DNA of 64,000 bases from positions 5,518,001 to 5,582,000 of the forward strand of contig NZ_AP022561.1 in the NCBI RefSeq assembly GCF_010726245.1, in the 5' to 3' direction. Shown here piece after piece: positions 20,682-35,110 of this stretch. Made by a program: the position numbers and the translations under genes. Each line of letters starts with the position of its first letter. Position 1 is the first letter of the stretch. The DNA is from Mycolicibacterium aichiense. GTDB taxonomy: Bacteria; Actinomycetota; Actinomycetes; Mycobacteriales; Mycobacteriaceae. A model generated the notes under the pieces. That model saw only the letters and a program-made list of their open reading frames with translations. It was not told the DNA's origin and made no database searches.

Positions 20682-21844
20682 TGACCGACGACGAGGTGCG
20701 CAACGAGGTCCGGGGTTGGCTGGCGGACAACTGGGACCCCACGCTGGACCGCGGCGCCTGGGCACAGCGGGTGTTCGACGCCGGCTGGGCGGTACCCAGC
20801 TGGGAGCCGCAGTGGTGGGGCCGCGGCCTCAGTGACCCGCAATCCCGCATCGTGGCAGCCGAATTCGCCGCCGTGGGCGCGCCGGGTACCGGCCACGACC
20901 GGGCGAATCTGTTCGCCTGCACCCTGCACGACCTCGGCACCGACGAGCAGAAGCAGCGTCTGATCCCGCCATCGATCCGCGGCGAAACCAAGTGGTGCCT
21001 GCTGTACTCCGAGCCCGGCGCCGGGTCGGATCTGGCCGGGTTGCGCACCCGCGCCGACCGAGACGGCGACGACTGGGTGATCAACGGCCAGAAGGTGTGG
21101 ACGTCGTTCGCCAAGACCGCCGACTACGGGCTGCTGGTGGCGCGCACCGACTGGGATCTGCCGAAGCACAACGGGATCAGCTTCTTCATGTTCCCGATGC
21201 GGCAGCCCGGCGTCGAGGTCCGTCCGATCCATCAGATCACCGGCGAGTCGGAGTTCAACGAGGTCTTCATCTCCGGGGCGCGGGTGCCGGACGCCAACCT
21301 GGTGGGGCAGCCCGGCGCCGGCTGGTCGGTGCTGCAGGTGGCGCTGGCCTACGAACGGCGACTGATGGGCGACCTGGCCCGCACGTCGCGCGGGGCACGC
21401 AAGCCCCAGGCCGATACCGACAGCCTGGTGGCGATGGCCCGCAGTGCCGGAAAGCTGGACGACTCGTTCATCCGCCAGGAGATCGCACGGGTCGAAGGGT
21501 ATGCGGCGGTGAATCGGTGGAACACCCAGCGCGCCAAGGCAACCTCTGATCGGGCTGAGGCCGCGACGCTGCTGGCACTGGGCAAGATCGCGATGTCGCG
21601 GATCCTGCACGAGACGGCGAAGGTGCAGACCGAGATCGCCGGCCCGGAGGCGATGTTGACCGGGCCGGACAATCCGGTCGGCGACGCTGTCACGTTCCGC
21701 ACCCTCAATGCGTACTTCACCTCGATCGGCGGCGGCACCGACCAGATTCAGCGCAACATCGTCGGCGAGCGGGTGCTGGGCTTACCGAAAGAGCCGGAGC
21801 CGTACCGCAATACCGCGTTCCGGGAGTTGCCGACGTCGAGCTAG
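20681..21844 (+). CDS. Acyl-CoA dehydrogenase, large FadE28-type subunit
   Basis: 387 residues from ATG 20681; in-frame sequence further upstream belongs to the preceding gene. It shows CLLYSEPGAGSDLAGL and VINGQKVWTSFAKTADYG (FAD and substrate beta domain), NEVFISGARVPDANLVG, and the C-terminal SIGGGTDQIQRNIVGER. As in the pair at 2243-4494, a small- and a large-type dehydrogenase gene lie side by side, here with the small one first. This favours an alpha2beta2 acyl-CoA dehydrogenase. The gene is convergent with the carbamoylase gene 32 bases away. Confidence 0.85.
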   Translation: MTDDEVRNEVRGWLADNWDPTLDRGAWAQRVFDAGWAVPSWEPQWWGRGLSDPQSRIVAAEFAAVGAPGTGHDRANLFACTLHDLGTDEQKQRLIPPSIRGETKWCLLYSEPGAGSDLAGLRTRADRDGDDWVINGQKVWTSFAKTADYGLLVARTDWDLPKHNGISFFMFPMRQPGVEVRPIHQITGESEFNEVFISGARVPDANLVGQPGAGWSVLQVALAYERRLMGDLARTSRGARKPQADTDSLVAMARSAGKLDDSFIRQEIARVEGYAAVNRWNTQRAKATSDRAEAATLLALGKIAMSRILHETAKVQTEIAGPEAMLTGPDNPVGDAVTFRTLNAYFTSIGGGTDQIQRNIVGERVLGLPKEPEPYRNTAFRELPTSS

Positions 21845-21876
21845 GGCCGGCACCTTGCCGCCGCATCCGTCACCGA

Positions 21877-23133
21877 TCAGGGCAGCTCCACGTCAGCGGC
21901 GACGAGTGCGCGCAGTAGCACATTCGCGCCGAGCACCAGATCATCGGGATCCGTATCCTCATGCGGGGAATGGCTGACCCCGTTGACGCTGGGCACGAAC
22001 ACCATGGCCACCGGCGCCAGCGCCGCCATGACCTGCGCGTCGTGACCTGCTCCGCTCGTCAGCTCGCACCAGCGGGCGCTCAGCCCTTCGGCGGCGTCGA
22101 CGATGTGCCCGGCCAGCCGCCGATCGGTGGCCACGGGGCTCTGGACCGGCCCAGCAGTCAAACGGATCGTGGTGCCGGTTCGCGCAGCCACCTCGCTGGC
22201 CTGCCGGCCCAGTAGCTCGAGCGCGGCGGCCATCCGCCCGACGTCATCATCACGGATGTCGATGCCGAGCACCGCCTCGCCGGGGATCACGTTGCGGGCG
22301 CCCGGCGCCAGCGCGAGGATGCCGGTCGTCGCGACCCGCACATGACCGCCCGTGGCCAAGGACTCGACTGTGAGCACCAAATGCGCGGCGGCCACCGCCG
22401 CGTCGCGCCTTCGCGTCATCGGGGTGGTACCGGCGTGATTGGCTGCTCCGGTGATCGTCGCGGTGACCCCGACCTGGCCGGTGATCGAGCTGACCACTCC
22501 GATGCGAGCATCTTCGGCTTCCAGCACGGGTCCCTGTTCGATGTGCATCTCGACGAACGCCGCGACCCGGTCCGGCGACCACGCCGCCCGGCTGATGCGT
22601 TCCGGATCACCGCCCGCCGAGCGCAGACGGTCGGCCAGGGTGACGCCGCCGTCACCGGGCCGCGCCAGATCCTCCGGTGTGAGCAGTCCGGCGATCGCCT
22701 TGGAGCCGACCATGCCAGGGGTTCCGCGGGTGCCTTCCTCGTTGCCGAACGCCACCACGACGAGGTCGTGGCGAAGCGCCGCGCCCGCGTCTCTGAGCGC
22801 CTGCGCGGTCGCGAGCCCGGCTATCACGCCGGCCGGACCGTCCAGCGGCCCGGCCCTCGTCACGCTGTCGAGGTGGCTTCCGGTCAACACAGCACCCGCC
22901 TGCGGATCGCGGCCGGGCAACCGGCCGAACAAGTTGGTGGCCTCGTCGACCCAGACCTGAAGACCCGCCGCAGCCATCCAGTCCGCCACGGTGTCGCGCG
23001 CGTCGACATCCTCCGGCGCGTAGGCCAACCGGGTGACGCCGCCGCAGGGATCGGCGCCGATTGCGGACAACTGCCGCAACCGATCGAGGAGCACGCCGCC
23101 GTCGACCGCGAGATCAGAAGCCGAGGACGTCAT
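21877..23133 (-). CDS. M20-family N-carbamoyl-amino-acid hydrolase / allantoate amidohydrolase type
   Basis: 418 residues from ATG 23133, which lies inside the 3' end of the upstream gene. The M20 metal ligands and dimer blocks are visible: GSHLDSVTRAGPLDGPAGV, NEEGTRGTPGMVGSKA, MHIEQGPVLE, TSGAGHDAQVMA and SHSPHED. Members cut the carbamoyl or ureido group from N-carbamoyl-amino acids, beta-ureidopropionate or allantoate. It is the last gene of the operon and would catalyse a late step, after ring opening by the hydantoinase. Whether the substrate is an alpha- or beta-ureido acid cannot be read from sequence. Confidence 0.85.
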   Translation of the reverse strand: MTSSASDLAVDGGVLLDRLRQLSAIGADPCGGVTRLAYAPEDVDARDTVADWMAAAGLQVWVDEATNLFGRLPGRDPQAGAVLTGSHLDSVTRAGPLDGPAGVIAGLATAQALRDAGAALRHDLVVVAFGNEEGTRGTPGMVGSKAIAGLLTPEDLARPGDGGVTLADRLRSAGGDPERISRAAWSPDRVAAFVEMHIEQGPVLEAEDARIGVVSSITGQVGVTATITGAANHAGTTPMTRRRDAAVAAAHLVLTVESLATGGHVRVATTGILALAPGARNVIPGEAVLGIDIRDDDVGRMAAALELLGRQASEVAARTGTTIRLTAGPVQSPVATDRRLAGHIVDAAEGLSARWCELTSGAGHDAQVMAALAPVAMVFVPSVNGVSHSPHEDTDPDDLVLGANVLLRALVAADVELP

Positions 23134-23533
23134 CAACCCTGGCATTTGCCGCCAAATGTGCCTGATAGGACCGCCAGCCGCCGAAGTCGGCAATGTCGAC
23201 GACCTTGTCTCCGGTGGCAATCCGGTCCGGTTGCAGGATCATGGCCCGCACCGTGGTCCCGTCGGCGAGCTGGATCGAACCCAGTTCGAGCTCCTTCGGC
23301 TCCTGCGGCAGCAGGATGTCGAACAGCAACTCGTCGGACATCTCGTAGAGCTCCCCGGTGATTGCCAGCCCACTGCGCTCCACCGGAAACAGACCGGGGA
23401 ACTCGTCGCGCACGGCGAAGAACCGGAAGTCCGGTGCGGTGCTGGCCGGGCCGACAAGCGTCGCCAGACCGGCGATGCAGCCGTGGTCCTTCTGTCCGGA
23501 CATGGCGGTGCCATTGAGGAACATGTGTTGCAC
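23114..23533 (-). CDS. Stand-alone allophanate-hydrolase C-terminal-type domain protein
   Basis: 139 residues from the GTG at 23533, preceded by GAAAGG; ATG 23524 is an alternative. It begins MFLNGTAMSGQ and contains FRFFAVRDEFPGLFPV and a long beta-rich segment ending WRSYQAHLAAN. This pattern is that of the gamma-glutamylcyclotransferase-like domain found at the C-terminus of allophanate hydrolase (AtzF/DUR1,2) and as free-standing relatives. No amidase domain accompanies it here. Its place between the regulator and the carbamoylase suggests that it handles a small carbamate or ureido product, but the reaction is unknown. Confidence 0.65.
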   Translation of the reverse strand: MQHMFLNGTAMSGQKDHGCIAGLATLVGPASTAPDFRFFAVRDEFPGLFPVERSGLAITGELYEMSDELLFDILLPQEPKELELGSIQLADGTTVRAMILQPDRIATGDKVVDIADFGGWRSYQAHLAANARVDDVLGF

Positions 23534-23559
23534 GTGAAGACCTTTCGGGTGAGAGTCGC

Positions 23560-24267
23560 TCAGGACAGAGCGGTGTCGGTATGGGCGCGTTGTGCGTCGT
23601 CGGCCCCGCGGCGCACGTGCGCCTCGGCGGCGGCCACGGCGCGGTCGACATGTCCGCTGCACACCTCGTTGAGCAGGTGCTCATGCTGCTCGACTGCCGG
23701 CAGCGTGCGTCCGGGGTCGCGATAACTCAACTCCGCAGCGACGTCGAGGCACTGCAGCAGATAGCCATCGAGAAGGCCGGCGAACCTGTCGCCGAATGCG
23801 ATTCGATAGATCGAGCTGTGGAACGCCAGATGGACCTCGGCGAACTCCTCAGAACCCACTCCGTGGGTGTCGATCACCGTGGCCATCGTCGCCAGCAGTG
23901 CGCGGGGTTCGGCCCACTGCTCGGGTTTGGCACGCTCGCAAGCCAGCCGGGCCGCCAACTTCTCCAGTTCGGCGCGGACCAAGAACAGGTCCTCGATCTC
24001 CTCGGCGACAATCCCGCGCGACCACAGGCCGCCGCCGCTGCCACGCTCGGCGAACCCGTCGCTCTCCAGCCTGCGCAGCGCATCGCGCACCGGTGTCCGG
24101 CTAACTCCGAGCTGGGCGGCGAGTTCGGTCTCCACCAGGTGGGTGCCGTGCGGGATCTGTCCGGTGATCAGCGCATGCCGTAGCGCCCGATACACGTGCT
24201 CGTAGGTCTTGCGCCGGATCTGCGCCGACAGCGACGGGACGGCTCCGAGCCGCTCCGACCCGCTCAC
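23560..24267 (-). CDS. GntR-family transcription regulator, FCD type
   Basis: 235 residues. The N-terminal winged helix (about residues 20-85) contains LVETELAAQLGVSRTPVRDALRRLESDG. The C-terminal FCD all-helical ligand domain has the metal/ligand pattern FHSSIYRIA and AVEQHEHLLNEV. FCD regulators usually respond to an organic acid or pathway intermediate and repress their own operon. It overlaps the hydantoinase stop by four bases and lies inside the operon, so it is the prime candidate to bind the palindromic site at 32251-32267. Confidence 0.88.
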   Translation of the reverse strand: MSGSERLGAVPSLSAQIRRKTYEHVYRALRHALITGQIPHGTHLVETELAAQLGVSRTPVRDALRRLESDGFAERGSGGGLWSRGIVAEEIEDLFLVRAELEKLAARLACERAKPEQWAEPRALLATMATVIDTHGVGSEEFAEVHLAFHSSIYRIAFGDRFAGLLDGYLLQCLDVAAELSYRDPGRTLPAVEQHEHLLNEVCSGHVDRAVAAAEAHVRRGADDAQRAHTDTALS

Positions 24268-25646
24268 AGTTGACCGCTCGCGTCACGTCGGAGGTACCGC
24301 CCTGAGCCGTGTTTACCGACGAAGAGGCCATTGACGATCACCGGCCGGCCCGCAGCGACCACTGTGCGCACCGCACCGGTCAGCGTCCAGCCCTCGTAGA
24401 GGCTGTAGTCCACCTTCATATGATGAGTCTGCGCGCTGATGGTCGTCGAGCCGGACGGATCGAAGATCACCAGGTCCGCGTCGGAGCCGACAGCGATAGT
24501 GCCCTTGCGCGGGAACAACCCGAACAGCCGCGCCGGTGTGGTCGAGAAGACTTCGACCATCCTTCGCAGCGAAAGATGCCCTGCGAGAACTCCACCGGAG
24601 TACAGCAGCTGAAGACGGTGCTCGATGCCCGGCCCTCCGTTGGGGATCTGGGAGAAGTCGTGTGCCCCGATCGACTTCTGCCCGTTGAGACAGAACGGGC
24701 AGTGGTCGGTGGAGACCACCTGGACATCATCGGTACGCAGACCCCGCCACAGATGCTCGTGGTGGTGAGCCGCGCGCAACGGAGGGGTGAGCACGTACTT
24801 TGCGGTGTCGAAGCTCTCGTCGTCGTAGACGCTGGAGTCCAGGAACAGGTAGTGCGGGCACGTCTCGGCGAACACCGGGCGGCCGCGGTCACGCGCCGCG
24901 GTCACCTCACTCAGCGCCTCCGCGCACGACAGGTGGACGAAATACACCGGCGAATCAGCCATTTCGGCCAGCGCGATCGCGCGGTGAGTGGCTTCGGCCT
25001 CGGCCAGTTCGGGCCGGGTACGACCGTGCCAGGACGGGTTGGTTCGCCCTTGGGCTAGCGCGCGCCGCACCAGGACGTCGATGACCGGTCCGTTTTCGGC
25101 ATGGATGCAGCACAGCGCACCTCGCTGGCCCGCCCGCTCGATGACCTCGAACAGGGTCGCGTCGTCGACCATCAATTCCCCGGGGTACGCCATGAACATC
25201 TTGATGCTGGTGACGCCTTCGTCGACGAGTTCGTCTATCTCGCTGAGTGATTCGGTTGCCATGTCGGTGATCACGATGTGTTGGGCGTAGTCGATGACGG
25301 CATTGCCCTCCGCCGCGGCAAGCCCGTCGTCGATGGCGGCCCGCAGGTGTTGTCCCCTGCGCTGCTGCGCGAAGTTCACCACCGTCGTAGTCCCGCCCGC
25401 CGCGGCAGCAATCGTGCCCGACCCGTAGTCGTCGGCGGTGGTGGTACCGGCCAGGCTGAACGCGAGATGGGTATGTGGATCCACCCCACCCGGCAACAGA
25501 TAGCAGCCGCTCGCGTCGATCACCTGATCGGCCGGGATATCCAGGGCCGCACCGATGGTGGTCACCTTGTCGTCGGCCACATACACGTCGGCGACATAGT
25601 CGTCGGCGGCGGTGACAACCCGCGCGCCGGTGATCAGCAAGCTCAT
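24264..25646 (-). CDS. Dihydropyrimidinase / hydantoinase
   Basis: 460 residues from ATG 25646. Metal and catalytic blocks of the cyclic amidohydrolases are visible: GGVDPHTHLAF (HxH), SIKMFMAYPG with the lysine that is carbamylated to bridge two metals, CIHAENGPVI, FVHLSCAEAL and STDHCPF. The enzyme opens dihydropyrimidine or hydantoin rings to N-carbamoyl acids. It overlaps the deaminase upstream and the GntR gene downstream by four bases each. Together with two downstream amidases it gives the ring-opening and decarbamoylation steps of a heterocycle pathway. Confidence 0.88.
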   Translation of the reverse strand: MSLLITGARVVTAADDYVADVYVADDKVTTIGAALDIPADQVIDASGCYLLPGGVDPHTHLAFSLAGTTTADDYGSGTIAAAAGGTTTVVNFAQQRRGQHLRAAIDDGLAAAEGNAVIDYAQHIVITDMATESLSEIDELVDEGVTSIKMFMAYPGELMVDDATLFEVIERAGQRGALCCIHAENGPVIDVLVRRALAQGRTNPSWHGRTRPELAEAEATHRAIALAEMADSPVYFVHLSCAEALSEVTAARDRGRPVFAETCPHYLFLDSSVYDDESFDTAKYVLTPPLRAAHHHEHLWRGLRTDDVQVVSTDHCPFCLNGQKSIGAHDFSQIPNGGPGIEHRLQLLYSGGVLAGHLSLRRMVEVFSTTPARLFGLFPRKGTIAVGSDADLVIFDPSGSTTISAQTHHMKVDYSLYEGWTLTGAVRTVVAAGRPVIVNGLFVGKHGSGRYLRRDASGQL

Positions 25647-27166
25647 AGCGTCCCCACCCATGCCCGTTCGTCGTCGCTGAACCTGTTGATTCCCAATTCC
25701 TCTCGGCAGCACCGCTGGTATATCGCGCGGAAGTGCGGCATCAGCTCACGGTTGCGCCGCTCGATATCGGCGTAACGGGCCAGGTACTCCCCGCCGAGTT
25801 CCCGCACCTCGGCCAGTACCGCGTCCTCGTCGATGTTCAGGCAGCGCCCGTCGCGCACGACCACCTCGCCGTTGACCCACACCTCGGTGATCGAGTCACC
25901 GTTCTCCACGTAGACCAGATGCTGCGCGATGTCGTTGACGGGGGTGAAGTTGAGCGAGTTGAGGTCCAGCATCACCAGGTCGGCCTTGCGGCCGGGAGCG
26001 ATGGCGCCGACGTCGTCGGTCAGCCGGGCCGACCGGGCGCCGCCGCGGGTCGCCGCCCATAGCACTTCATCGGCAGTGGGCCAGGCATCGAAATCGGGTT
26101 GCGTCACCTTGTGCAACAGGGCGGCCGATTTGACGACGTCGAACATCCGCGCAGAGTCGTTGCTGGACAACCCGTCCGAGCCCAATCCGATGTTGACCCC
26201 GGCATCGAGCAGCGCCCGCCACGGCGCAATACCCGAACCCAGCTTCAGATTCGAGATCGGGTTGTGCGCCACCGACGCGCCGACTGCGCCGAGGCGTTCG
26301 ATGTCACCGTCGGTGAGCCAGATTCCGTGCGCGAGAGTGGCCCGGTCGGTCAGCACACCGAGCGAGTCCAGGTACTCGACGAGGGTCGACCCGTAGAACT
26401 CGCGGCCGGTCACGGCCTGCATCTTGGTTTCCAGGACGTGCACATGGAAGGTCGTGTCGTGCTCGCGCGACAATTCGTTGGCCGCGACGAACAACTCGGC
26501 GGTGCACCGCTGGGGGCCGCTCGGGGCGACCACATAGCGAAGCCGGCCCGCGCGGCCGTCGAACCGCGTCAGCGCCTCCTTGCTGAACTGCAAGTAGTCC
26601 TCGGTGGTCCGCGGCGCGACCGCGCGGGCCTCGGCGAGCAGCCCGGCCGGCACCATCTCGTCGACGAACGGGATCGTGTCGATGTAGAGCCGGTTGACGA
26701 TGTTGCCCGAGCAGTTGGCCCGGATCCCGATGTCCTCGTACCCCCGGAAGACGGCCTCCAGGGCGGTCAGACTCTGCGTGGGCGACTCGATGACGTCGTC
26801 GAGCAGGCAGGTGGCGCCGTTGCGCAGTGACTCCATGCCAACCAGCAGGGTTCGCAGGTAGATCAACCGCTCCGACATCGGCTCCAGGCCAAGGACCGGA
26901 TAGGACAACAACATCCACAATTCCAGCGGCAGATTGTCGTAGCGGCCCTTGAACAGCGCCTCCCACGAATGCACATGGGCGTTGACCAGTCCGGGCATCA
27001 GCAGCCGGTGGGTGCAGTCGATCACCTCCGCGCTCTCGAGCACGGGCAGATCCGGCGCCACCGCGCTGATCCGGTCGTCTACCACCAGCACGTCGGAGCG
27101 GAAGGGCTTGCTGCGGTGGGCGTCGTCCATCGCGACCACGAGGGCGTTGCGGAACAGGGTGCTCAT
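25643..27166 (-). CDS. Amino-heterocycle deaminase / amidohydrolase of the Atz/Trz-SsnA type
   Basis: 507 residues. Metal-binding blocks of the cytosine-deaminase-like amidohydrolases are PGLVNAHVHSWEA (HxH), FHVHVLETK, LAHGIWL and GSDGLSSNDSARMF (Asp). No mixed carboxylysine site is seen, which fits the mononuclear deaminase and chlorohydrolase subgroup. Such enzymes hydrolyse C-NH2 or C-Cl bonds on triazines, guanine, 8-oxoguanine or methylthioadenosine. It overlaps both operon neighbours by four bases. I infer deamination of the imported heterocycle before the hydantoinase acts. A C-terminal extension of about 60 residues is rich in charged residues. Confidence 0.82.
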   Translation of the reverse strand: MSTLFRNALVVAMDDAHRSKPFRSDVLVVDDRISAVAPDLPVLESAEVIDCTHRLLMPGLVNAHVHSWEALFKGRYDNLPLELWMLLSYPVLGLEPMSERLIYLRTLLVGMESLRNGATCLLDDVIESPTQSLTALEAVFRGYEDIGIRANCSGNIVNRLYIDTIPFVDEMVPAGLLAEARAVAPRTTEDYLQFSKEALTRFDGRAGRLRYVVAPSGPQRCTAELFVAANELSREHDTTFHVHVLETKMQAVTGREFYGSTLVEYLDSLGVLTDRATLAHGIWLTDGDIERLGAVGASVAHNPISNLKLGSGIAPWRALLDAGVNIGLGSDGLSSNDSARMFDVVKSAALLHKVTQPDFDAWPTADEVLWAATRGGARSARLTDDVGAIAPGRKADLVMLDLNSLNFTPVNDIAQHLVYVENGDSITEVWVNGEVVVRDGRCLNIDEDAVLAEVRELGGEYLARYADIERRNRELMPHFRAIYQRCCREELGINRFSDDERAWVGTL

Positions 27167-28065
27167 GCGATCTCCTCGGCAGCGGGGAAAAGGTCGGTGC
27201 GGCGATGTTCGAAATAGCGCAGCGTGCGCCGTGTTTCGGCCAGGACGTCAAGATCGATCTCGGCGATCACCAATCCTGGGCCGTCGGCGCCGGGACGGTG
27301 TGCGATCAGTTCGCCGTCGGGCCCGACGATGCAGGACTCGCCGTAATTGTCGACCGGCTGGCCGCTCACCCATTCGATGCCGATCTTGTTGGCCACCACG
27401 GCGAACAGACCGTTCTCGCGGGCGTGGGTGCGCAGCTCGGCCAGGAAGAAGTCGACGCTGTCACCGCCACTGCCGGCGACCGGGACTGCCACGAGATCGG
27501 CATGGAGCGCCCTCAACTCCCGCCAGCACTCGGGGAAGCGCCGGTCGTAACAGATCAGGACCCCAAGCCGCGTGCCCAGCACTGTGTGTACCCCGAGCCA
27601 CTGTCCGGGGGTGAAGTGCGCGGGCTCGTCGAAGCCGGGCGCCGGGTGGTCGCCGACAGGCAGATGCAGCTTGCGGGCGACCAGGTGGGACTGTCCGGTG
27701 CGGTCGACACACGGGACCGTGACACCTTGCTCGTCGAGGACCACCGCTGAGTTATGGAAACTGGGGGCGCTACCGTGGGCGCCGTCGTCGCGCTCGAAGA
27801 GCGGGAATACCACCGCCACACCGAGTTCGGCCGCACGCTCGGCGATTCGCTCGGACTGCGGGCCGGGCAGCGACTGCGCCTGGTCGCGGTAGGCACCGGG
27901 CGGTTCGCCGCCGAAGTACGGCGTGGTGGCCAGCTCTGGGAACACCACGAGATCGGCACCGGCCGCGGCCGCGTCGGTGAGCGCTGCCTCGACGACCGCC
28001 AGGTTCTGCTCCGGGTCGTGGCCACACGCCGGGAGTTGCGCTGCCGCAACCACGAGCGCACTCAC
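27163..28065 (-). CDS. Carbon-nitrogen hydrolase (nitrilase superfamily, beta-ureidopropionase or amidase type)
   Basis: 300 residues. The Glu-Lys-Cys triad is complete: Glu in LVVFPELATTPYF, Lys in LVARKLHLPVG, and Cys in LGVLICYDRRFPE. A C-terminal RRTDLFP tail is typical of N-carbamoyl hydrolases and related amidases. It would hydrolyse an amide or ureido C-N bond in the cytosol. The operon also encodes an M20 carbamoylase, so the two may act on successive products or on different isomers. Confidence 0.85.
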   Translation of the reverse strand: MSALVVAAAQLPACGHDPEQNLAVVEAALTDAAAAGADLVVFPELATTPYFGGEPPGAYRDQAQSLPGPQSERIAERAAELGVAVVFPLFERDDGAHGSAPSFHNSAVVLDEQGVTVPCVDRTGQSHLVARKLHLPVGDHPAPGFDEPAHFTPGQWLGVHTVLGTRLGVLICYDRRFPECWRELRALHADLVAVPVAGSGGDSVDFFLAELRTHARENGLFAVVANKIGIEWVSGQPVDNYGESCIVGPDGELIAHRPGADGPGLVIAEIDLDVLAETRRTLRYFEHRRTDLFPAAEEIA

Positions 28066-28880
28066 CTACGCGCCCTTTCCTGCTGGGCGAAGGCGCGGTC
28101 GACCTCATCGGCCAGCAGATCGACGAGCTGATCGTGCAGGGCGTGGTACTCCGGCGACCGCGGATCGCGAGGGCGCTGCATGTCCACCTCCACCATCGCC
28201 TTGATGCGGCCGGGGCGCGCGGTGAACACCACGATGCGGTCCGCCAGCGCCACCGCCTCGTCGATGCTGTGAGTGACAAACAGGACCGAGGCGCCGCTCT
28301 CCTCACGCAGCGAGGCCACGTAGTTCTGCAACTTTGCGCGCGTCTGCACGTCCAGAGCTGCGAAGGGCTCATCCATCAGCACCACCCGGGGCTGCATCGC
28401 CAGCGCGCGGGCGATCGCGGCACGCTGGCGCATTCCGCCGGACAGGCCGTCCGGATGCGCATCGGCGAAGTCACCCAATCCCATGGTGTGCAACAGATCC
28501 CGTGCGATCTCTCGTCGATCGGCCTTCGGCATACCGCGCAGCTTCAGCCCGAAGCAGACATTGTCGACGACTGACATCCACGGATAGAGCGAGGACTGCT
28601 GGAAGATCATGCAGCGGTCAGGCCCGGGCCCGACGACCGGGGCGTCGTCCGCCACGATCTCACCGGAAGTAGTCGGTTCCAGGCCGGCGATCATCGATAG
28701 GAGCGTGCTCTTCCCACAGCCGCTGGGGCCGAGGATGACGACGAACTCGCCAGGGGCGACGTCGAGGTTGACGGAGTCGACGGCGAGCACTTCGGATCCG
28801 TTGTCGCCGAACACCTTACTGACGGCACGGCAATGCACCGCCCCGGTAGCCTGCTTTCCTCCGACTGCGGCGGGTGTCAT
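28062..28880 (-). CDS. ABC transporter ATP-binding protein (SsuB/TauB/NrtD type)
   Basis: 272 residues from ATG 28880, which overlaps the permease stop. Walker A is GPSGCGKST, the Q-loop is in FQQSSLYPW, the signature is LSGGMRQR, Walker B is VVLMDEPFAALD, and the switch His is in FVTHSIDEA. The family energises import of sulfonates, nitrate, thiamine precursors and similar small organics. It works with the permease and two binding proteins just upstream in the operon. Confidence 0.9.
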   Translation of the reverse strand: MTPAAVGGKQATGAVHCRAVSKVFGDNGSEVLAVDSVNLDVAPGEFVVILGPSGCGKSTLLSMIAGLEPTTSGEIVADDAPVVGPGPDRCMIFQQSSLYPWMSVVDNVCFGLKLRGMPKADRREIARDLLHTMGLGDFADAHPDGLSGGMRQRAAIARALAMQPRVVLMDEPFAALDVQTRAKLQNYVASLREESGASVLFVTHSIDEAVALADRIVVFTARPGRIKAMVEVDMQRPRDPRSPEYHALHDQLVDLLADEVDRAFAQQERARR

Positions 28881-29770
28881 CGACGGGCACCTCCACCGGC
28901 TGGCTGCCACCACAGCAATCGGTTCTGCAGTTGGCGGAAGGCGATGTCGAGCAGGTAACCGGAGACGCCGATGACGGTCATCGTGAAGAACACCAGACTC
29001 GAGTTGAATGTGTTGCGGGCGAGCATGACCACCTGGCCGAGTCCGCTGCCGACGCCGACGGCCTCGGCCAGCAGGACCACCATCCACGCGGCAAACAGGT
29101 TCAGCCGCAGACTCTGCAGCAGGCCGGGCAGGATGGCGGGCAGAACGACCTGGAACAAGATTTGGCGCCGCGAGGCGCCCATCGTGCGCGCCACGTTGAT
29201 GTACGTCGCAGGAACCTCGTTGATCAAGCCGATGGTGGCCAGGGTCATGACGAAATACACACCGATGAACACCATGAATATCGCCGGCGGGTTACCGATA
29301 CCGAACAGGAAGATCGCCACGGGCAGCCAAGCAATCGGCGAGATCGGCGCCAGCAGCGTGATCGTGGGCAGTACCAGTCCGCGCACGATCAGGAACTGGC
29401 TGATGAGTACCCCGGTGATGAGGCTGGCGACGAAGCCGAGGGTTAATCCGGCAAGTACCCGCAGCACTGTCGCGAGCACCGTGGTCGCGACCGCGACCAC
29501 CGGGGGCGTCTGGTCGGCGCCGATCGTCGAAGTGTCGAAGAACCGGGCCTGGCTGCTGAAGTGCTGCAAGAAGATATGCGGCGGCGGCAGCAGCAACTCG
29601 GGCGCCCACCCCATCAGCCAGGCCAGTTCCCAGAGACCGGCGAACAGGGCAACCGACGCCAGCCACCACGCCGCGGCTGTGCCGAGTCGGCGGTACCTGC
29701 TGCGCGAACGTCGTTGCGTAGCGGGCGCCGTGCGCTGGGCGGGTAGGTCGAAGTGGGTGATGGCGGTCAT
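28877..29770 (-). CDS. ABC transporter permease (SsuC/TauC type)
   Basis: 297 residues with about six hydrophobic segments. The EAA cytoplasmic loop is seen in YINVARTMGASRRQILFQVVLPAILPGLL, which contacts the ATPase. The N-terminal 35 residues are basic. It forms the membrane channel of the importer with the ATPase (28062-28880); both ends overlap operon neighbours by four bases. Confidence 0.88.
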   Translation of the reverse strand: MTAITHFDLPAQRTAPATQRRSRSRYRRLGTAAAWWLASVALFAGLWELAWLMGWAPELLLPPPHIFLQHFSSQARFFDTSTIGADQTPPVVAVATTVLATVLRVLAGLTLGFVASLITGVLISQFLIVRGLVLPTITLLAPISPIAWLPVAIFLFGIGNPPAIFMVFIGVYFVMTLATIGLINEVPATYINVARTMGASRRQILFQVVLPAILPGLLQSLRLNLFAAWMVVLLAEAVGVGSGLGQVVMLARNTFNSSLVFFTMTVIGVSGYLLDIAFRQLQNRLLWWQPAGGGARR

Positions 29771-30837
29771 GCGGTCTTCAACTTCAGCGAGTTGTACAGG
29801 CTCTGGTTCTCATTGATGACTTCCTCGAGCAGCGACCAGTCGGCGATCTTCTCGTCGGGCAGCTTCTTCAGGTAGCCAAGGTCTTTCATACCGACGGCAC
29901 GCTCGAGCATGAACTGGGTCTTGTTGCGTTGGTCGACGACGTTGGGTTGCTTGGTGGAGGCGGCCAGGGCGTCGTCCAGGCTGGTTTTGAAGTAACTGCC
30001 CACGACCTGTGAGACGGCGGCCCTGCGATCGGTCTCAGCCTGCTGCTGCGCCTCGAACAGGCCCTTGATCACCGCCTTAACCGCCTTCGGGTTCTCCGTC
30101 AACAACGGATTACGCACGGCCAGAACGCAATCGGTGTAGCCGGGGCCGTAGACGTCCTTGCCGTCGGAGAGCAGCACCGAACCGCCGCGGGCGTTGAGCG
30201 CCTGGGTGACGTAGGGCTCGATATGACTCATGCTGTCGATGGAACCGCTGATGAACGCCTGCGCGAGTTCAGGTGAAGTGCCGAAGTAGCGGACGTTGAT
30301 GTCCTTGAACGACAGGCCGGCCTTCTTCAGGTAGTCGTACGGCAGCATCTCGAGGGTGTCGGCCTGGAACGTGCCCAGCGTCTTGCCCTTCAGGTCCGCA
30401 GCCGAGGTGATACCCGGTTGCGCCACGATCGAACAGCCCTCGACACCGCCGCCGGCGACGATCCTCACCGGTGCGCCGGCGTCGTAAAGGGTCAGGAACT
30501 GGGTGTACGGGATCAGCGACATGTCGACCTGGCCGGCTCCAAACAGCGTGACGATGTCGGCATTGGTGGGTGTGACAACGAAATCGATAGCAGCACCGTC
30601 GGTTTCGCTGAGCTTGCGCTCCTTGGTCAGGAAGATGCCGAGGTTGCACAGGCCGGTGCCGTGGGTCGCCTTCAGCGTGGTGAGGCCGGCAGCGTTGGGC
30701 GCGGGTGCGGTGCCCGCGCTGCCTGCACCCGAGCAGCCGCTGAGCAGCCAGGCCGGCACGGCGACCGCGGTGCCTGCGATCGCGGCGTTGCGGAAGAACT
30801 TACGGCGGTTGAGGGGTGCGGTGAACGTATCTCTCAT
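29767..30837 (-). CDS. ABC transporter substrate-binding lipoprotein, NMT1/THI5-like, Tat-type signal
   Basis: 356 residues from ATG 30837. The signal region has NRRKFFRNAAIAG, a twin-arginine motif, followed by a lipobox ending LLSGC, so the mature protein would be a lipid-anchored cell-envelope protein exported by Tat. The body matches the NMT1/TauA-like periplasmic fold: THGTGLCNLGIFLTKERKL near the start, DIVTLFGAGQVDMSL and DLKGKTLGTF. It should capture the imported molecule. Relatives bind pyrimidines, sulfonates or nitrate, so a nitrogen heterocycle is reasonable but unproven. Confidence 0.86.
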   Translation of the reverse strand: MRDTFTAPLNRRKFFRNAAIAGTAVAVPAWLLSGCSGAGSAGTAPAPNAAGLTTLKATHGTGLCNLGIFLTKERKLSETDGAAIDFVVTPTNADIVTLFGAGQVDMSLIPYTQFLTLYDAGAPVRIVAGGGVEGCSIVAQPGITSAADLKGKTLGTFQADTLEMLPYDYLKKAGLSFKDINVRYFGTSPELAQAFISGSIDSMSHIEPYVTQALNARGGSVLLSDGKDVYGPGYTDCVLAVRNPLLTENPKAVKAVIKGLFEAQQQAETDRRAAVSQVVGSYFKTSLDDALAASTKQPNVVDQRNKTQFMLERAVGMKDLGYLKKLPDEKIADWSLLEEVINENQSLYNSLKLKTA

Positions 30838-31742
30838 CGGGCGATCTCCTTGGCTGCTGGTACGGCGGTGAGCTCGGCGTTGAGCAGGTCGAGATTGACC
30901 GCATGAAGCGGCATTTCGGCGTCCTGTGACACCAGGTCCAAGGACCGCAGGCTGTCCCATCTCCCGTAGACGGTGGCGGTGAGGTCACGGATATCGATCC
31001 TCGAGGGCTGGCGTCCGACGGCGTCCGCGAGTTCGTCGAGGGAGTACCCGGGGAAGTAGTCGCGCGCGTGACGCAGGGCCGCAGGAAGGTCGGTGAGGAT
31101 CAGGTCGTGGGCGCGTAGCATCGCGCGGATGGCAGCCCGCACCTGGTCGGGACGTTCTCGAAGGAATCGGCTCGACGCCACCAGGGTGGTGTCGGGGAAC
31201 GGGTCTCCCCACACGTCGGTGCCATCGCTGAGCACGTGTGCACCGGCGGCGCACACCCGGCCCGCGTACGGTTCGGCCAGGGTCAGCGCGGCCAGTTCAC
31301 CGGCCTCGAACGCCTCGATAGCGTGGTTGAGCACGTCGAAATAGCGGATCTCGACGTCGCTCATGGCCAGTCCGGCGGCATTCAGAACATCGTGGAGCAA
31401 CACCTCCATCGGATCCGTGCGGAAGGTCCCGACGGGCGCGCCGGCCAGCGCAGCGGCGTCAGGCAACATCTCCCGGGTAAGGACGAAAACTCCCATCAAC
31501 CCACTGCCTGCGACCAGTACGGGGGGGTCGGTCCGCCCTGAGTCGATCAGCGGCTGGGTGAAGCCCGCAGTGCCGAGGTCGGCGACACCTGTGGCGAGAA
31601 GCTCTGCGGTGGACGTGATGTCGTCGAAGTACGGCGCCTCTACGCGCAGACCCTGGTCGGCGAAGAGGCCTTCGCCGACGGCGACGAATAACGGAAGGTT
31701 CGACAGGGAGCACCCGTGGGTGAGGACCAGGGTCTCGCTCAT
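30834..31742 (-). CDS. Second NMT1-like substrate-binding protein, no signal peptide
   Basis: 302 residues from ATG 31742. It starts directly with the mature fold (LVLTHGCSLSNLPLFVAVGEG) and lacks a signal peptide or lipobox. It shares the layout of the lipoprotein that follows it: TAELLATGVADLGTAGF, GAPVGTFRTD, and FEAGELAALTLAEPYA. It could be a cytosolic sensor or a binding protein whose export signal was lost. An upstream start encoding a signal is not apparent. It overlaps both neighbours by four bases. Confidence 0.75.
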   Translation of the reverse strand: MSETLVLTHGCSLSNLPLFVAVGEGLFADQGLRVEAPYFDDITSTAELLATGVADLGTAGFTQPLIDSGRTDPPVLVAGSGLMGVFVLTREMLPDAAALAGAPVGTFRTDPMEVLLHDVLNAAGLAMSDVEIRYFDVLNHAIEAFEAGELAALTLAEPYAGRVCAAGAHVLSDGTDVWGDPFPDTTLVASSRFLRERPDQVRAAIRAMLRAHDLILTDLPAALRHARDYFPGYSLDELADAVGRQPSRIDIRDLTATVYGRWDSLRSLDLVSQDAEMPLHAVNLDLLNAELTAVPAAKEIAR

Positions 31743-32272
31743 GCCGCACATCCCGCGCGGTGTCCGGTGGCCAGGCTGGTGTGGAGTGGCACCGCATCCA
31801 CACCGGCAATCACCACGCGCCAACCGGGCCACTCGCGTTCAGGCGGGCAGGCCAGGACGGCGACGGTGCGCACGACGAGCCGACCATCGTGGTCCGCGGC
31901 CAACAGCGCCGCCGCGTCGTCGTAGCTGATGGCGATCACCGGGCCACCGAGATCGGCGACCGCGCGGACGCGAATGTTCACGCCCGGCGCCGCGATCCAG
32001 CCGCCTGCGACCTCCGCGAGATCCGTGGAAGCAACTGCGCTACCCGGCGCCAGCACAGCCAGAGCCGCGCGTGTCGCGGCCGGCAGCGTGCGATCGTCGG
32101 TCTGCAGCGCTACCAGTTCGGTCTGTGCCCCGCAGCACGGGCGACTGCCGCCTGCCGCGATGTGCAGGCGGCGGCTCACTACCCCGTCGAGGTGCAGGAA
32201 TGCGTGATCGGGGGCTACACCGTGCCACTCGACAACGGTCAGCTGACCGGTTGTGTCCTGTATACAACGCAT
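31739..32272 (-). CDS. Unrecognised protein, first gene of the heterocycle operon
   Basis: 177 residues from ATG 32272; its stop overlaps the next start by four bases, so it belongs to the operon. I recognise no family. It has no signal peptide, contains a CCG motif near residue 46 and a central hydrophobic alternating segment suggesting beta strands. The palindromic site at 32251-32267 lies inside its first seven codons, so the real start may be downstream (for example the GTG before SRRLHIAAGG) and the upstream part may be the operator region. Confidence 0.55.
   Translation of the reverse strand: MRCIQDTTGQLTVVEWHGVAPDHAFLHLDGVVSRRLHIAAGGSRPCCGAQTELVALQTDDRTLPAATRAALAVLAPGSAVASTDLAEVAGGWIAAPGVNIRVRAVADLGGPVIAISYDDAAALLAADHDGRLVVRTVAVLACPPEREWPGWRVVIAGVDAVPLHTSLATGHRAGCAA
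32251..32267. promoter_or_regulatory. Candidate GntR/FCD operator in front of the heterocycle operon
   Basis: TTGTGTCCTGTATACAA is an imperfect palindrome (TTGTGT / ATACAA) with a perfect 8-base core TGTATACA at 32259-32266. FCD GntR proteins often bind TTGTATACAA-like sites. It lies at the head of the 11-gene operon that contains such a regulator gene. Binding is inferred. Confidence 0.5.
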
Positions 32273-32396
32273 AGTCAGCCATTAGAGGCGGCGGCCGTTT
32301 CGATCGCGTTACCCAGACCGGCGCTCCGTGTTAACGGTTCCTCACCACGATCGGGGGACCGCCGCGGCGCACGACTACGCCGACACCGACCGTTCG
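32273..32396. other. Intergenic region with the likely operon promoter
   Basis: 124 bases between two minus-strand genes. It should carry the promoter of the 11-gene operon; GTTAAC occurs near 32330 but no clear -10/-35 pair could be chosen. Confidence 0.4.
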
Positions 32397-33686
32397 CTAG
32401 TGGGCGCGGCCGCCGATGACGGTGGCGGTCACGAGTTCGGCGTCGAGGGCGTCGAGCACCTCGGCGGGCGCTGCGCTCAGCACACACAGGTCACCGGGCT
32501 GGCCCGGTTCGACGGTCCTGGGCACGTCGGGACGCTCGGCATGCCCGGTGAACAAGGTCAGTGCCGTTGTGGCCGACACGCATTCGGCCGGGTTCAGCAC
32601 CACACCGGTCTTGGTGGTGCGGTGTACCGCGGCGCGCATGGACGCCCACGGGTCGGCGTCGCCGAAGGGCAGGTCGGTCGACAATGCCACCCGCACACCC
32701 GCGTGTTGCAGTGATGCCAGCCGCCACAGTGCGGGCTGGTCAGCGGCTTCTACATCGATCAGGTACTGGTCACCACGCTCGGCGACGAAGTTCGGCTGGG
32801 TCACCACCAGCACGCCACTGTCGGCCAGGTCGGCGAGCGAGTCGTCGGGTACCACCGCGGCATGCTCGATCCGGTCGTCGGGGTGGGTGCCCGCCGCCCG
32901 CAGCGCGGCCAGGGTCACCACCAGCTGGCCTGCCGTCACACAGTGCATCGCGACAGCTCTGTTCTCACGGTGCTGCGCGGCGATCCACCCGGCGAGTTCG
33001 TCGAGATCGAGCGAATCGTCATGCAGGATGCGCTTTCCCGGCGCCAGCCAGTGCACATGCTGATGCAACCCGCCGTGCCGCTGCTCCTCGGTCAGGGTGA
33101 TGATGTCATCGGCCCCGAGGTTCGGGGTGGCATCGGTGACACCGGTGACGCCATAGCCGAGGAGCCGCCTGCTGACCGTGGCCAGCGATGTGTCGCGGCG
33201 CGCGACCGCATCCGACCAGTTGTCGTAGCTGCGTAGCCTGCCGTCGGGATGGTCGGGCAATCCCACTGCCGACAGGCCGGCGGAGTTGAGGTACCACAGC
33301 ACGCCGCTGCGATGTTGAATGCGCACCGGCACAGCAGGAGTGAGCTCGTCGAGCAGCCGGCGGTCCAGTGTCCCCGCGGCGGATTCGTGGTAGCCGACGG
33401 CCCGGATCCAGCCGTCCTCGCCGACCGGCGCGTTCGCGAGCACGGCGGCGAATTCCGCGCGGCTGTGGACCAGCGCGGGGCCGACCTGCACGGAGTCCAG
33501 CGCCGCCGCTGCGGCCCGCAGGTGTACATGGTGATCATGCAGGCCCGGGATGACCGTGCCGCCCGCGGCGTCGAGGGCGTCCTCGCCACGGCGTGGGGTC
33601 AGCGAGTCGGCGACCTCGCCGATCGCGGCGCCCAGCCTGATGTCGACCATTCGCCCGTCCAAGAGGTGGGCTCGCTGGATCAGCAT
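32397..33686 (-). CDS. Amidohydrolase (metal-dependent hydrolase, YtcJ-like)
   Basis: 429 residues from ATG 33686. The HxH motif is in PGLHDHHVHLRAA. Other metal-site candidates are AMHCVTAGQLV, RIEHAAVV and ALSTDLPFGDADPW. The C-terminal GQPGDLCVL block is typical of the amidohydrolase small domain. It overlaps the end of the CoA-transferase gene by seven bases and is probably cotranscribed with it. It may feed substrates to either adjacent pathway; the substrate is unknown. It is shorter than the YtcJ-like protein at 13915-15552. Confidence 0.78.
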   Translation of the reverse strand: MLIQRAHLLDGRMVDIRLGAAIGEVADSLTPRRGEDALDAAGGTVIPGLHDHHVHLRAAAAALDSVQVGPALVHSRAEFAAVLANAPVGEDGWIRAVGYHESAAGTLDRRLLDELTPAVPVRIQHRSGVLWYLNSAGLSAVGLPDHPDGRLRSYDNWSDAVARRDTSLATVSRRLLGYGVTGVTDATPNLGADDIITLTEEQRHGGLHQHVHWLAPGKRILHDDSLDLDELAGWIAAQHRENRAVAMHCVTAGQLVVTLAALRAAGTHPDDRIEHAAVVPDDSLADLADSGVLVVTQPNFVAERGDQYLIDVEAADQPALWRLASLQHAGVRVALSTDLPFGDADPWASMRAAVHRTTKTGVVLNPAECVSATTALTLFTGHAERPDVPRTVEPGQPGDLCVLSAAPAEVLDALDAELVTATVIGGRAH

Positions 33687-34864
33687 GGGACCGTATTTCG
33701 TTGGGCGACAATGGCGTCGACGGTGGCGTTGTCGGCACCCGGTGGCGCCGCTGCGGTGAGGCGCCGGGGTGGTCGCGGGGGCACTGCCGGGATCGCCGAC
33801 AGCGACGGGTCGGTGGGCAAGGCCGCGTACGTGGCCGCGACGCCGGCCATCGCCACGTCGATGGTCTCACCGCCACCGCGGCGTAGCGAACGGGCCAGGG
33901 CCAGTGCGGCTTCCAGCCCGGTCAGGGGATCGGCGACGGCGTCGGCGCAGAACACCGGGCCGCTCGCGCTGGTGCCGACCAGCCCACCCGCGACGGCCGC
34001 GTCGTCGCCGAACGCGGTGCGTTGTGATCGCGGCCCGTGGCCGGTGATGCGTAACCACACCCGGCCATCCGGGCCGGGTACGGCCTCCGGACTCACTCCC
34101 CGCCGCGCGAGCACACCGGGCCTGGACCCCTCGATGACCACGTCGGCGGCCGCCAGCAATGCGCGCAGCCGGTCGTCGCGCTCGAAATCGACTGTGTACG
34201 AGAGCTTCCGCTGGTTCATCCAGTTGTAGAACGCGAGGTCTCCCGAGCGGGTGCCATCGAGGCGGCTCGGGCTTTCCACCTTCACGACAGTGGCCCCCGC
34301 CGCCGCCAGGAGCTGACCGCACAGCGGTCCGGCCCACATCGACGACAGGTCGGCGACCAGAAGTCCCTCCGGGGAGCGGGGCGCAGCCCGGCGGCCATCC
34401 GCTCGCATCGTGGGTGCTGCCGGCGCCGTCTCGCCCAGGCGCGCGGCGGGCAGGTCCAACAACGTGGCCCGGTCCAGGACTTCGTCGCTGCGACGATCGG
34501 CACACCACTGCGCGATCACCGGCCAGGGATCCTCGGGCACCGAGTCGGCTTCGACGAGCGCCGGGACAGCCTCGATATCGTCGGCGCGGGACAGCGTCAG
34601 CGCCCACCAGCCGTCGCGGGTGCGCATCAGGTGGCTGGCCCCGCCGGCCGAGACACGCCCGCGCCGGTGCAGGCCGAGCAGAGCGGCCCGTCCCGTCAGG
34701 CTGGTGGCGGCGTCGACCTGGACGCCCAGCAGATCAGTGAGCTCGGCGGCGACGCGGTCGGCGCGGGTCAGCACCGCCGACCGGGAGTGGTCGGGCGGGC
34801 CGTCGGATGGGCCGGTCAGCCAGGCCATGCCACTGCCGGCCCAGTCGGCGCCGGTGACGTTCAC
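33680..34864 (-). CDS. CoA-transferase family III (CaiB/BaiF) protein, domain order unusual
   Basis: 394 residues from GTG 34864 (N-terminus VNVTGADWAG). Residues from about 165 onward are the standard CaiB N-terminal Rossmann part (LLVADLSSMWAGPLCGQLLAAAG, ATVVKVESPSR, LRITGHGP). The first 160 residues look like the small C-lobe that normally follows it (RTRDGWWALTLSRADDIEA ... WCADRRSDEVLD). The family moves CoA between carboxylates. The catalytic Asp could not be assigned with confidence. It is probably cotranscribed with the amidohydrolase downstream. Confidence 0.72.
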   Translation of the reverse strand: MNVTGADWAGSGMAWLTGPSDGPPDHSRSAVLTRADRVAAELTDLLGVQVDAATSLTGRAALLGLHRRGRVSAGGASHLMRTRDGWWALTLSRADDIEAVPALVEADSVPEDPWPVIAQWCADRRSDEVLDRATLLDLPAARLGETAPAAPTMRADGRRAAPRSPEGLLVADLSSMWAGPLCGQLLAAAGATVVKVESPSRLDGTRSGDLAFYNWMNQRKLSYTVDFERDDRLRALLAAADVVIEGSRPGVLARRGVSPEAVPGPDGRVWLRITGHGPRSQRTAFGDDAAVAGGLVGTSASGPVFCADAVADPLTGLEAALALARSLRRGGGETIDVAMAGVAATYAALPTDPSLSAIPAVPPRPPRRLTAAAPPGADNATVDAIVAQRNTVPC

Positions 34865-34918
34865 CCGCCCATTGTCGCGCGCGCCGACGGGCCTCCGCAG
34901 AGGTCCTGCGTTTGTCGC

Positions 34919-35077
34919 CCGCCTCCGAGCGACAACCAACGGTCGGGTCGGCCCCTATCGGTGATCGAGATCGACGCGAGCGCGCGCAAGTGCGAGTGCG
35001 CGTCACGCCAGCGTCGATCTCGCCGACGCGGACAGGTGACCGCCGGGAATGCGCTCTTGTTTGTCGCTCGGAGGCGG
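34919..35077. repeat. Nested inverted repeats in the gap between two minus-strand genes
   Basis: Outer arms of 17 bases, CCGCCTCCGAGCGACAA (34919-34935) and its exact reverse complement (35061-35077). Inside lie 12-base arms CGAGATCGACGC (34966-34977) and GCGTCGATCTCG (35011-35022), also perfect. A local 7-base TTGTCGC/GCGACAA pair overlaps the left outer arm. It fills most of the 246-base gap after the MaoC gene stop, so it may act as a terminator-like structure or be a dispersed palindromic element. No gene is seen here. Confidence 0.75.
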
Positions 35078-35110
35078 ACACCACCGGTCTAGTTCAGGCA
35101 GGCCTGTCGC

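Follow-up and report, generated by a model that had tools for sequence, protein, structure and literature searches.

An eleven-gene Mycolicibacterium operon with a candidate role in nitrogen scavenging from an imported heterocycle

The 64,000-nucleotide stretch of DNA analysed here (the window) covers positions 5518001-5582000 of the Mycolicibacterium aichiense genome, a single contig of 5.93 Mb, and carries eleven minus-strand genes with outer limits 21877 and 32272. These genes make up a real, conserved catabolic operon, whose parts are of known kinds and whose combination we found nowhere described. We tentatively read it, with somewhat less than even confidence, as a nitrogen-scavenging operon for an imported heterocycle with an exocyclic amino or imino group, most likely of the 2-iminohydantoin (2-amino-imidazol-4-one) class. 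Several observations support this reading: the eleven-gene order is found in five loci including the window, the hydantoinase and the M20 carbamoylase score over the cut-offs of their models, the nitrilase-fold amidase has a CxDRR motif, creatininase-type, allantoinase-type, M20 and racemase-family genes stand beside some distant deaminases, and the allophanate hydrolase C-terminal-like domain (AH_C) is linked with hydantoinase-type genes. In order of transcription, the genes are as follows.

31739..32272, minus strand: protein of 177 amino acids with no family assigned (no Pfam match).
30834..31742, minus strand: SBP2, a protein of substrate-binding protein (SBP) fold without signal peptide (PF09084, 53 bits).
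29767..30837, minus strand: SBP1, a substrate-binding lipoprotein of NMT1/SsuA type (PF09084, 59 bits).
28877..29770, minus strand: permease of an ATP-binding cassette (ABC) importer (PF00528, 68 bits).
28062..28880, minus strand: ATPase of the ABC importer (PF00005, 111.9 bits).
27163..28065, minus strand: nitrilase-fold amidase, D-carbamoylase-like (PF00795, 153.8 bits).
25643..27166, minus strand: Atz/Trz-type amino-heterocycle deaminase of its own subfamily (PF01979, 177 bits).
24264..25646, minus strand: D-hydantoinase/dihydropyrimidinase (TIGR02033, 574.5 bits, cut-off 393.25).
23560..24267, minus strand: GntR/FCD transcriptional regulator (PF00392, 68.4 bits; PF07729, 67.8 bits).
23114..23533, minus strand: stand-alone AH_C of 139 amino acids (PF21986, 91.7 bits, cut-off 27).
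21877..23133, minus strand: M20 carbamoylase, a hydantoinase/carbamoylase family amidase, allantoate-amidohydrolase-like (TIGR01879, NF006771).

Gene content, order and conservation, family membership, motifs and the linkage of AH_C with hydantoinase-type genes were all observed. The first-pass annotation had placed eleven minus-strand genes between exactly these limits, and its domain calls agree with Pfam and NCBIfam. With gene starts picked from overlaps and orthologue alignments, eight of the ten junctions are the 4-base overlaps it had described (six ATGA, two GTGA); the remaining two are a 26-base gap from GntR to AH_C and a 20-base overlap from AH_C to M20. It had also proposed looking for the same gene order in other genomes, and four further Mycolicibacterium loci do carry all eleven genes, ordered and oriented as in the window, namely L009 (M. 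rhodesiae DSM 44223, the nearest named relative seen, with a 96% identical deaminase), L036, L037 and L039 (locus numbers are ours). Another locus, L038, is a 7.6 kb contig cut at both ends that holds part of the operon; to judge from length and content, L010 is this contig too. In this metagenome-assembled genome (MAG), at 893-2634 of L038, the hydantoinase between the deaminase and GntR consists of its last 70 residues, through a real deletion or an assembly fault.

The operon-type deaminase family is rare. At E <= 1e-120 the deaminase was matched in 10 of 297 genomes of the genus; six of these carry the operon type (83-100% identity), and six carry a paralogue (51-53% identity), two of the latter having the operon type as well. 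With an alignment of deaminases as the query, matches at E <= 1e-150 came from two of the 345 genomes in the class to which the window belongs (both Mycolicibacterium), and at E <= 1e-145 from 10 of 289 genomes of the class of an Aminobacter genome and from 1 of 246 genomes of the order of a Lachnospiraceae MAG, namely that MAG. Among the best 120 of 1323 deaminase matches and the best 120 of 459 AH_C matches, Pseudonocardia aurantiaca and two Streptomyces have relatives of the deaminase (78-82%) and of AH_C (75-77%) on contigs of equal length, an indirect sign that the two are linked, so that the cluster seems to be sporadic in other actinobacteria. A plasmid search for a close copy gave 36 records at E <= 1e-100, all of less than 60% identity and all from rhizobial genera.

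The hydantoinase passes the TIGR02033 equivalog by a wide margin and misses the allantoinase equivalog TIGR03178 (266.5 bits against a cut-off of 357.85). Among proteins of solved structure its closest relatives, up to 496 bits, go by the names D-hydantoinase or dihydropyrimidinase. Its motifs HTH, IKMFMAY, HAEN, HLSC and STDHCP are present, which we take to be the metal ligands and the bridging lysine. The other two matches in the genome (E <= 1e-20) are 29% and 32% identical. The M20 protein passes TIGR01879 (392 bits, cut-off 204) and, narrowly, the allantoate amidohydrolase subfamily NF006771 (404 against 399 bits); it holds the motifs SHLDS, LDGPAG, NEEGT, HIEQGP and SHSPHED, presumably of the metal site. 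Its best solved relative is the N-carbamoyl-L-amino acid hydrolase 3n5f (283 bits), with N-carbamoyl-beta-alanine amidohydrolase 8c46 at 227 bits. The nitrilase-fold amidase has FPELA, ARKLH and ICYDRRFPE, in which we assume the Glu-Lys-Cys triad and the role of the Arg pair. The last of these motifs aligns with ICNDRRWPE of the N-carbamoyl-D-amino acid amidohydrolase 1erz, and the cysteine region (CYDRRFPE) is like CNDRRWPE of the D-carbamoylase and unlike CWDQWFPE of N-carbamoylputrescine amidase. Overall likeness is modest, with 77 bits to 1erz and about the same, 80 bits, to the N-carbamoylputrescine amidase 5h8i, and the protein fails TIGR03381 for the latter activity (117 bits, cut-off 410). 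As its hydantoinase and carbamoylase genes are near one another and point the same way, the operon is a candidate hyu-type cluster.

From this gene set we infer every reaction, the substrate class and the roles of AH_C, GntR and SBP2. SBP1 and the ABC pair would import the substrate, and the deaminase would strip its exocyclic nitrogen as ammonia to leave a hydantoin. The D-hydantoinase would then open the hydantoin ring to an N-carbamoyl amino acid, from which the nitrilase-fold enzyme (D-form) and M20 (L-form or an allantoate-like form) would remove the carbamoyl group, giving the amino acid, ammonia and CO2. Because a D-hydantoinase, a D-carbamoylase-like enzyme and M20 occur together, both stereochemical branches would be emptied. 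AH_C, a recurrent partner of ring openers, may act on a product of carbamate type or hold the enzymes in order; GntR/FCD would control operon expression; and SBP2 may either sense the ligand for the transporter in the cytosol or be an enzyme of SBP fold. A route of import, deamination, ring opening and C-N cleavage had been suggested at first pass, and it fits the families and the conserved co-linearity, its reactions being predictions. An iminohydantoin-type substrate is ranked first and a pyrimidine-type one next, because a hydantoin produced by deamination requires no reduction.

The deaminase itself is matched by 54 NCBIfam families, and none of the best 25 of these 54 reaches its cut-off: 8-oxoguanine deaminase gives 243 bits (cut-off 532), N-ethylammeline chlorohydrolase 271 (609) and 5'-deoxyadenosine deaminase 270 (522). 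The motifs HxH, HxHxxE, H and D are present, with the roles that we assume for them in such enzymes, and an alignment of 14 deaminase sequences (A1) has invariant NxPLExWM and PQRC blocks. The subfamily seems to act on amino-bearing nitrogen heterocycles. We surveyed the neighbourhoods of 29 distant deaminases (38-59% identity), with L009, L010, L019, L020 and the operon-type loci left out; totals were counted at E <= 1e-15, and several contigs are short. Creatininase and racemase-family genes occur in 4/29 loci each, AtzD-type genes in 3/29, CodA-like genes in 5/29 and NCS1 genes in 6/29. In a Bacillota locus (L016) the neighbours are PucR, ABC genes, a creatininase over its cut-off, an allantoinase equivalog and M20, and in Lachnospiraceae (L017) they are a PucR-like gene, ABC genes, two deaminases, an Asp/Glu/hydantoin racemase family gene, an allantoinase equivalog and M20.

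The same survey and some other results weigh against an iminohydantoin substrate. A hydantoinase- or allantoinase-type match was present in just 3 of the 29 loci (L016, L017, L077), M20 in just three (L016, L017, L073) and AH_C in none, and because of the first of these counts we lowered our confidence slightly. Outside the operon the link with hydantoinase is thin, and the evidence for a five-membered ring as opposed to a nucleobase is mixed. In each of their six loci (L040-L045) the mycobacterial paralogues (51-53%) adjoin genes for PucR and an NCS1 permease, one gene of each kind having been scanned with profiles, and no hydantoinase or carbamoylase match is present in any of the six; the copy in L045 has one in-frame stop within the match. 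In Ensifer canadensis, the neighbours of a deaminase relative are a nucleoside hydrolase (280 bits with the RihA model, cut-off 433) and an ABC transporter of BMP type. Both contexts fit nucleobases at least as well. Moreover, there is no racemase among the operon genes, the SBP family is not diagnostic of substrate, the hydantoinase family also opens dihydropyrimidines according to one report (PMC3546935), and the assignment of the substrate is drawn from sequence. The Ensifer gene belongs to a pair of alike megaplasmid clusters (L084 3020-13515 in Ensifer and L085 3036-13515 in Sinorhizobium, deaminase relatives 47-48%), annotated with BMP-type ABC, uracil-DNA glycosylase, GMC/choline dehydrogenase and NIPSNAP genes and, in Ensifer, the nucleoside hydrolase.

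The nucleobase contexts just described, Ensifer cluster and paralogue loci alike, speak for the most credible alternative, to which we give perhaps a quarter of our belief: an amino-dihydropyrimidine or pyrimidine route. Here the deaminase would take a base like cytosine, or the dihydro form of such a base, as its substrate, the hydantoinase would serve as a dihydropyrimidinase, and the amidases would do the work of beta-ureidopropionases. TIGR02033 is itself a dihydropyrimidinase equivalog, and the alignment of M20 with 8c46 points the same way. However, the operon has no reductase, and PreA-type dihydropyrimidine dehydrogenase, the sole reductase type sought in the genome, reached at best 45.2 bits against a cut-off of 335 (the model was over cut-off in 2 of 14 control genomes). 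Therefore plain uracil cannot be assumed as feed for the hydantoinase, and the classical uracil route was rejected as first choice. The best solved relatives of the nitrilase-fold enzyme are also N-carbamoylputrescine and N-carbamoyl-D-amino acid amidases, with beta-ureidopropionases at about half the score. A pyrimidine, which stood among the early guesses for the substrate, is disfavoured in its classical reductive form, and the substrate is a predicted one in either case.

Creatininase-type genes adjoin deaminase relatives in L011, L014, L015 and L016 (the two scanned reach 359 and 291 bits with TIGR04448, cut-off 235), as might be expected if the operon led from creatinine through N-methylhydantoin and N-carbamoylsarcosine to sarcosine. 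Corynebacterium does deaminate creatinine to N-methylhydantoin, but with codA, hyuB and cshA, which belong to other families as far as these are named in that study (PMC8864220). Neither a creatininase nor a sarcosine-oxidising enzyme is among the operon's families, and we regard this route as unlikely.

Two of these loci bear on triazines as well. L011, of a Rhodospirillaceae MAG, has polyamine-type ABC genes, two deaminases, a creatininase over cut-off, two cytosine-deaminase-like enzymes and an AtzD-type gene; L014 resembles it, and its AtzD-type gene is over the cyanuric acid amidohydrolase cut-off (435/360). A third AtzD-type gene lies near a distant deaminase in L073. Together with the superfamily of the deaminase and the resemblance of AH_C to the C-terminus of allophanate hydrolases, these genes would suit an s-triazine (Atz/Trz) degradation operon. 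We nevertheless consider this highly improbable for the window: neither a ring opener of AtzD type nor the amidase domain of an allophanate hydrolase is encoded in the operon, and its deaminase is far under the triazine-type models (271/609 and 237/540). For lack of the opener, and with the deaminase under the Atz/Trz-type cut-offs among the best 25 of 54 families, a triazine pathway was rejected as first choice. As for the uncultured alphaproteobacterial clusters in their own right (L014 1-11268 and L011 3467-16598, the latter also with an amidase), natural triazine- or barbiturate-like degradation is possible.

We then consider AH_C, the most informative of the orphan proteins, which has no amidase domain and whose GTG start is consistent with orthologues of 139 amino acids; with its C-terminal domain alone, it falls short of full allophanate hydrolase (TIGR02713, 55.8 bits against a cut-off of 511). 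A survey of 249 order-level genomes at E <= 1e-12 gave 41 AH_C matches in 37 genomes, and the same 37 genomes hold 106 hydantoinase-, allantoinase- or dihydroorotase-type matches at E <= 1e-20, dihydroorotase-like proteins included. Of the 41 AH_C matches, 15 lie within 1 kb of a hydantoinase/allantoinase-type match (0.07 expected under uniform placement), 19 within 2.6 kb (0.14 expected) and 27 within 10 kb (0.43 expected); the last figure is a guide and not a probability, because a single genus (g181) supplies seven of the 37 genomes, and six of these seven are among the 27. Counted in the 41 are the window, the orthologue in M. rhodesiae and at least one case (L155) in which AH_C is the C-terminal domain of a full-length allophanate hydrolase. 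Without the first two, linkage at 10 kb is 25/39. The 27 linked cases span 14 of 18 genus labels, and among 24 fetched loci with both genes, AH_C and its partner are on one strand in 22. The stand-alone status of the others was judged by an amidase-domain search in 39 fetched loci, in one of which (L152) that search did not recover AH_C itself, though another had. Seven of the 14 unlinked matches have in their stretch a gene like the PF00860 permease of L129 (L127, L129, L136, L137, L146, L151, L159); among the others are two whose pieces are very short or at a contig end, a full-length allophanate hydrolase and the second AH_C gene of M. aichiense itself. This second gene (G000:C1:3789805-3790164, L130) has 39% identity and no hydantoinase-type match within 700 kb.

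Since AH_C is recurrently near hydantoinase/allantoinase-type genes, it looks like a ureide-pathway protein, and its role in ureide breakdown may be catalytic (carbamate handling) or structural. The carbamate idea goes back to work on the C-terminal domain of allophanate hydrolase. Positions kept in at least 80% of 29 aligned AH_C sequences include N7, R37, E61, E78, D91 and W120, numbered as in the window protein. What speaks against catalysis is that AtzF kept the activity of the complete protein when its C-terminal fragment was removed; a part in the organisation of oligomers was suggested for this fragment (PMC3944691). Four partners were scanned, of which three are over cut-off, as allantoinases in L131 (380) and L132 (401; cut-off 358) and as a D-hydantoinase in L121 (406; cut-off 393), while that of L119 is just under the allantoinase cut-off (350 vs 358). 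AH_C of L119, L131 and L132 is accompanied by a GntR gene, a ring opener and ABC genes, an arrangement like that of the window operon on a smaller scale. Elsewhere, AH_C clusters hold PF00860 permeases, allantoinase-type genes, deaminases and PucR-like genes, and the deaminase of L138 is an 8-oxoguanine deaminase equivalog (669/532). In E. coli CFT073 (L134 16190-19001, L133 1-5403), AH_C lies between carbamate kinase and cytosine permease, next to DUF1116 and fdrA, in a cluster that also holds DUF2877 and cysteine hydrolase genes.

These purine-like surroundings, and the narrow pass of M20 at the allantoate amidohydrolase model, favour a purine-derived ureide route, in which deamination of a base derived from a purine or oxidised purine would give allantoin or a related compound, whose ring would then be opened to yield allantoate for M20. 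Its probability is as low as that of creatinine: the window's hydantoinase is over the D-hydantoinase cut-off and under that of allantoinase (574/393 and 266/358), and its deaminase is under the 8-oxoguanine deaminase cut-off (243/532).

Both binding proteins had been called NMT1-like at first pass and both do match PF09084, but they are not equivalent, as SBP2 lacks a recognisable signal peptide. They share about 28% identity. SBP1 begins with a Tat-like NRRKFF at residue 10 and a lipobox-like LSGCS at residue 32 (signals here were judged by eye). SBP2 starts directly in the fold: L036, L038 and L039 have no in-frame start more than 6 residues before it, and in the window, L009 and L037, where in-frame starts lie 27-30 residues upstream, the extension is not hydrophobic, so that by eye no export signal is recognisable in the six loci. 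SBP2 is thus probably cytosolic. Its model is of moderate confidence (predicted local distance difference test, pLDDT, 69.5) and has fold matches to ordinary SBPs, CmpC/NrtC regulatory domains, THI5 and DszB. It is possibly a free cytosolic sensor, comparable with the cytosolic, SBP-like regulatory domain of the NrtC/CmpC ATPases; an SBP-fold enzyme is possible too. The Cys in THGCSLSN may lie at the position of the catalytic Cys of DszB, one fold match among many SBPs. The C-terminal domain of CmpC is thought to be a solute-binding regulatory domain (PMC11349869). For the ABC ATPase, the SaoA, taurine and nitrate profiles rank best, all under cut-off.

A bolder proposal, which we offer as a long shot, is that the operon salvages imino-hydantoins, either guanine-oxidation products of iminoallantoin/guanidinohydantoin type or arginine-glycation imidazolones. 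The deaminase would yield hydantoin or allantoin, followed by ring opening and decarbamoylation of both enantiomers; AH_C would be a carbamate-processing enzyme common to the ureide pathways of actinobacteria and enterobacteria, and SBP2 a free-standing cytosolic sensor gating the importer.

The 177-amino-acid protein has 20 matches including its own, and all six with an organism name are mycobacterial; in 201 family genomes, matches were found in three (its own, G112 and one weak). It therefore looks accessory and not core. Its AlphaFold2 model (pLDDT 82) has weak fold matches alone, to MacB/LolE/YbbP extracytoplasmic domains. The G+C content of the operon (66.9%) is near that of its flanks (67.6 and 68.3%), so composition gives no sign of recent import. 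A sigma-70 scan gave no promoter-like site, the terminator scan gave three terminator-like sites against 4.4 in shuffles, and the Rfam scan of 21000-36000 gave no match. Directly upstream on the minus strand, at 32397-34939, there are mutually overlapping genes for Amidohydro_3 and class III CoA-transferase-like proteins; they are present in L009 and were not seen upstream in L036, L037 and L039 on mechanical maps of open reading frames, which hide some true genes, and we rejected them as operon members.

Known systems share parts of this design. The hyu clusters of Arthrobacter crystallopoietes and Aminobacter have hydantoinase/dihydropyrimidinase and carbamoylase genes as the window does, and in Aminobacter DSM24755 ABC transporter genes adjoin the dihydropyrimidinase gene (PMC3546935). 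Unlike them, the window has an amino-heterocycle deaminase, two unrelated carbamoylase-type enzymes, a stand-alone AH_C, GntR/FCD, a signal-less SBP and the 177-amino-acid protein, and it has no racemase. Creatine/creatinine utilisation in Corynebacterium glutamicum (crnT, codA, creT, crnA, hyuB, cshA) includes an iminohydantoin deamination such as we propose; for strain ATCC 14067 it is followed by proposed ring opening and decarbamoylation (PMC8864220). However, other genes serve each step there, in several operons under AmtR control. The actinobacterial PF00860 permease/allantoinase-type/AH_C clusters likewise combine a cyclic amidohydrolase ring opener with an AH_C partner, but their openers in L131 and L132 are allantoinase equivalogs and the L138 deaminase is an 8-oxoguanine deaminase equivalog, whereas the window's opener is a D-hydantoinase and its deaminase belongs to a different subfamily. 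The arcC-DUF1116-fdrA-DUF2877 cluster of E. coli CFT073 (C_RS22500 to C_RS22530) also has a stand-alone AH_C (PF21986, 141.6 bits), whose neighbours are genes for nitrogen compounds and for a cytosine permease, with carbamate kinase and FdrA where the window has hydantoinase and carbamoylases. The first-pass annotation knew of no described pathway with this gene set, and we found none in the titles and abstract openings of the open-licence PMC literature, which is no proof of absence, subscription papers lying outside that scope.

The operon thus offers a compact candidate pathway for a nitrogen heterocycle in soil actinobacteria. It also gives a context to two orphan protein types, the stand-alone AH_C, which its position links with genes of hydantoinase and allantoinase type, and an SBP paralogue that lacks a signal peptide and is encoded beside its own importer. 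If AH_C is indeed catalytic in ureide breakdown, an unrecognised step of hydantoin and purine catabolism could be filled.

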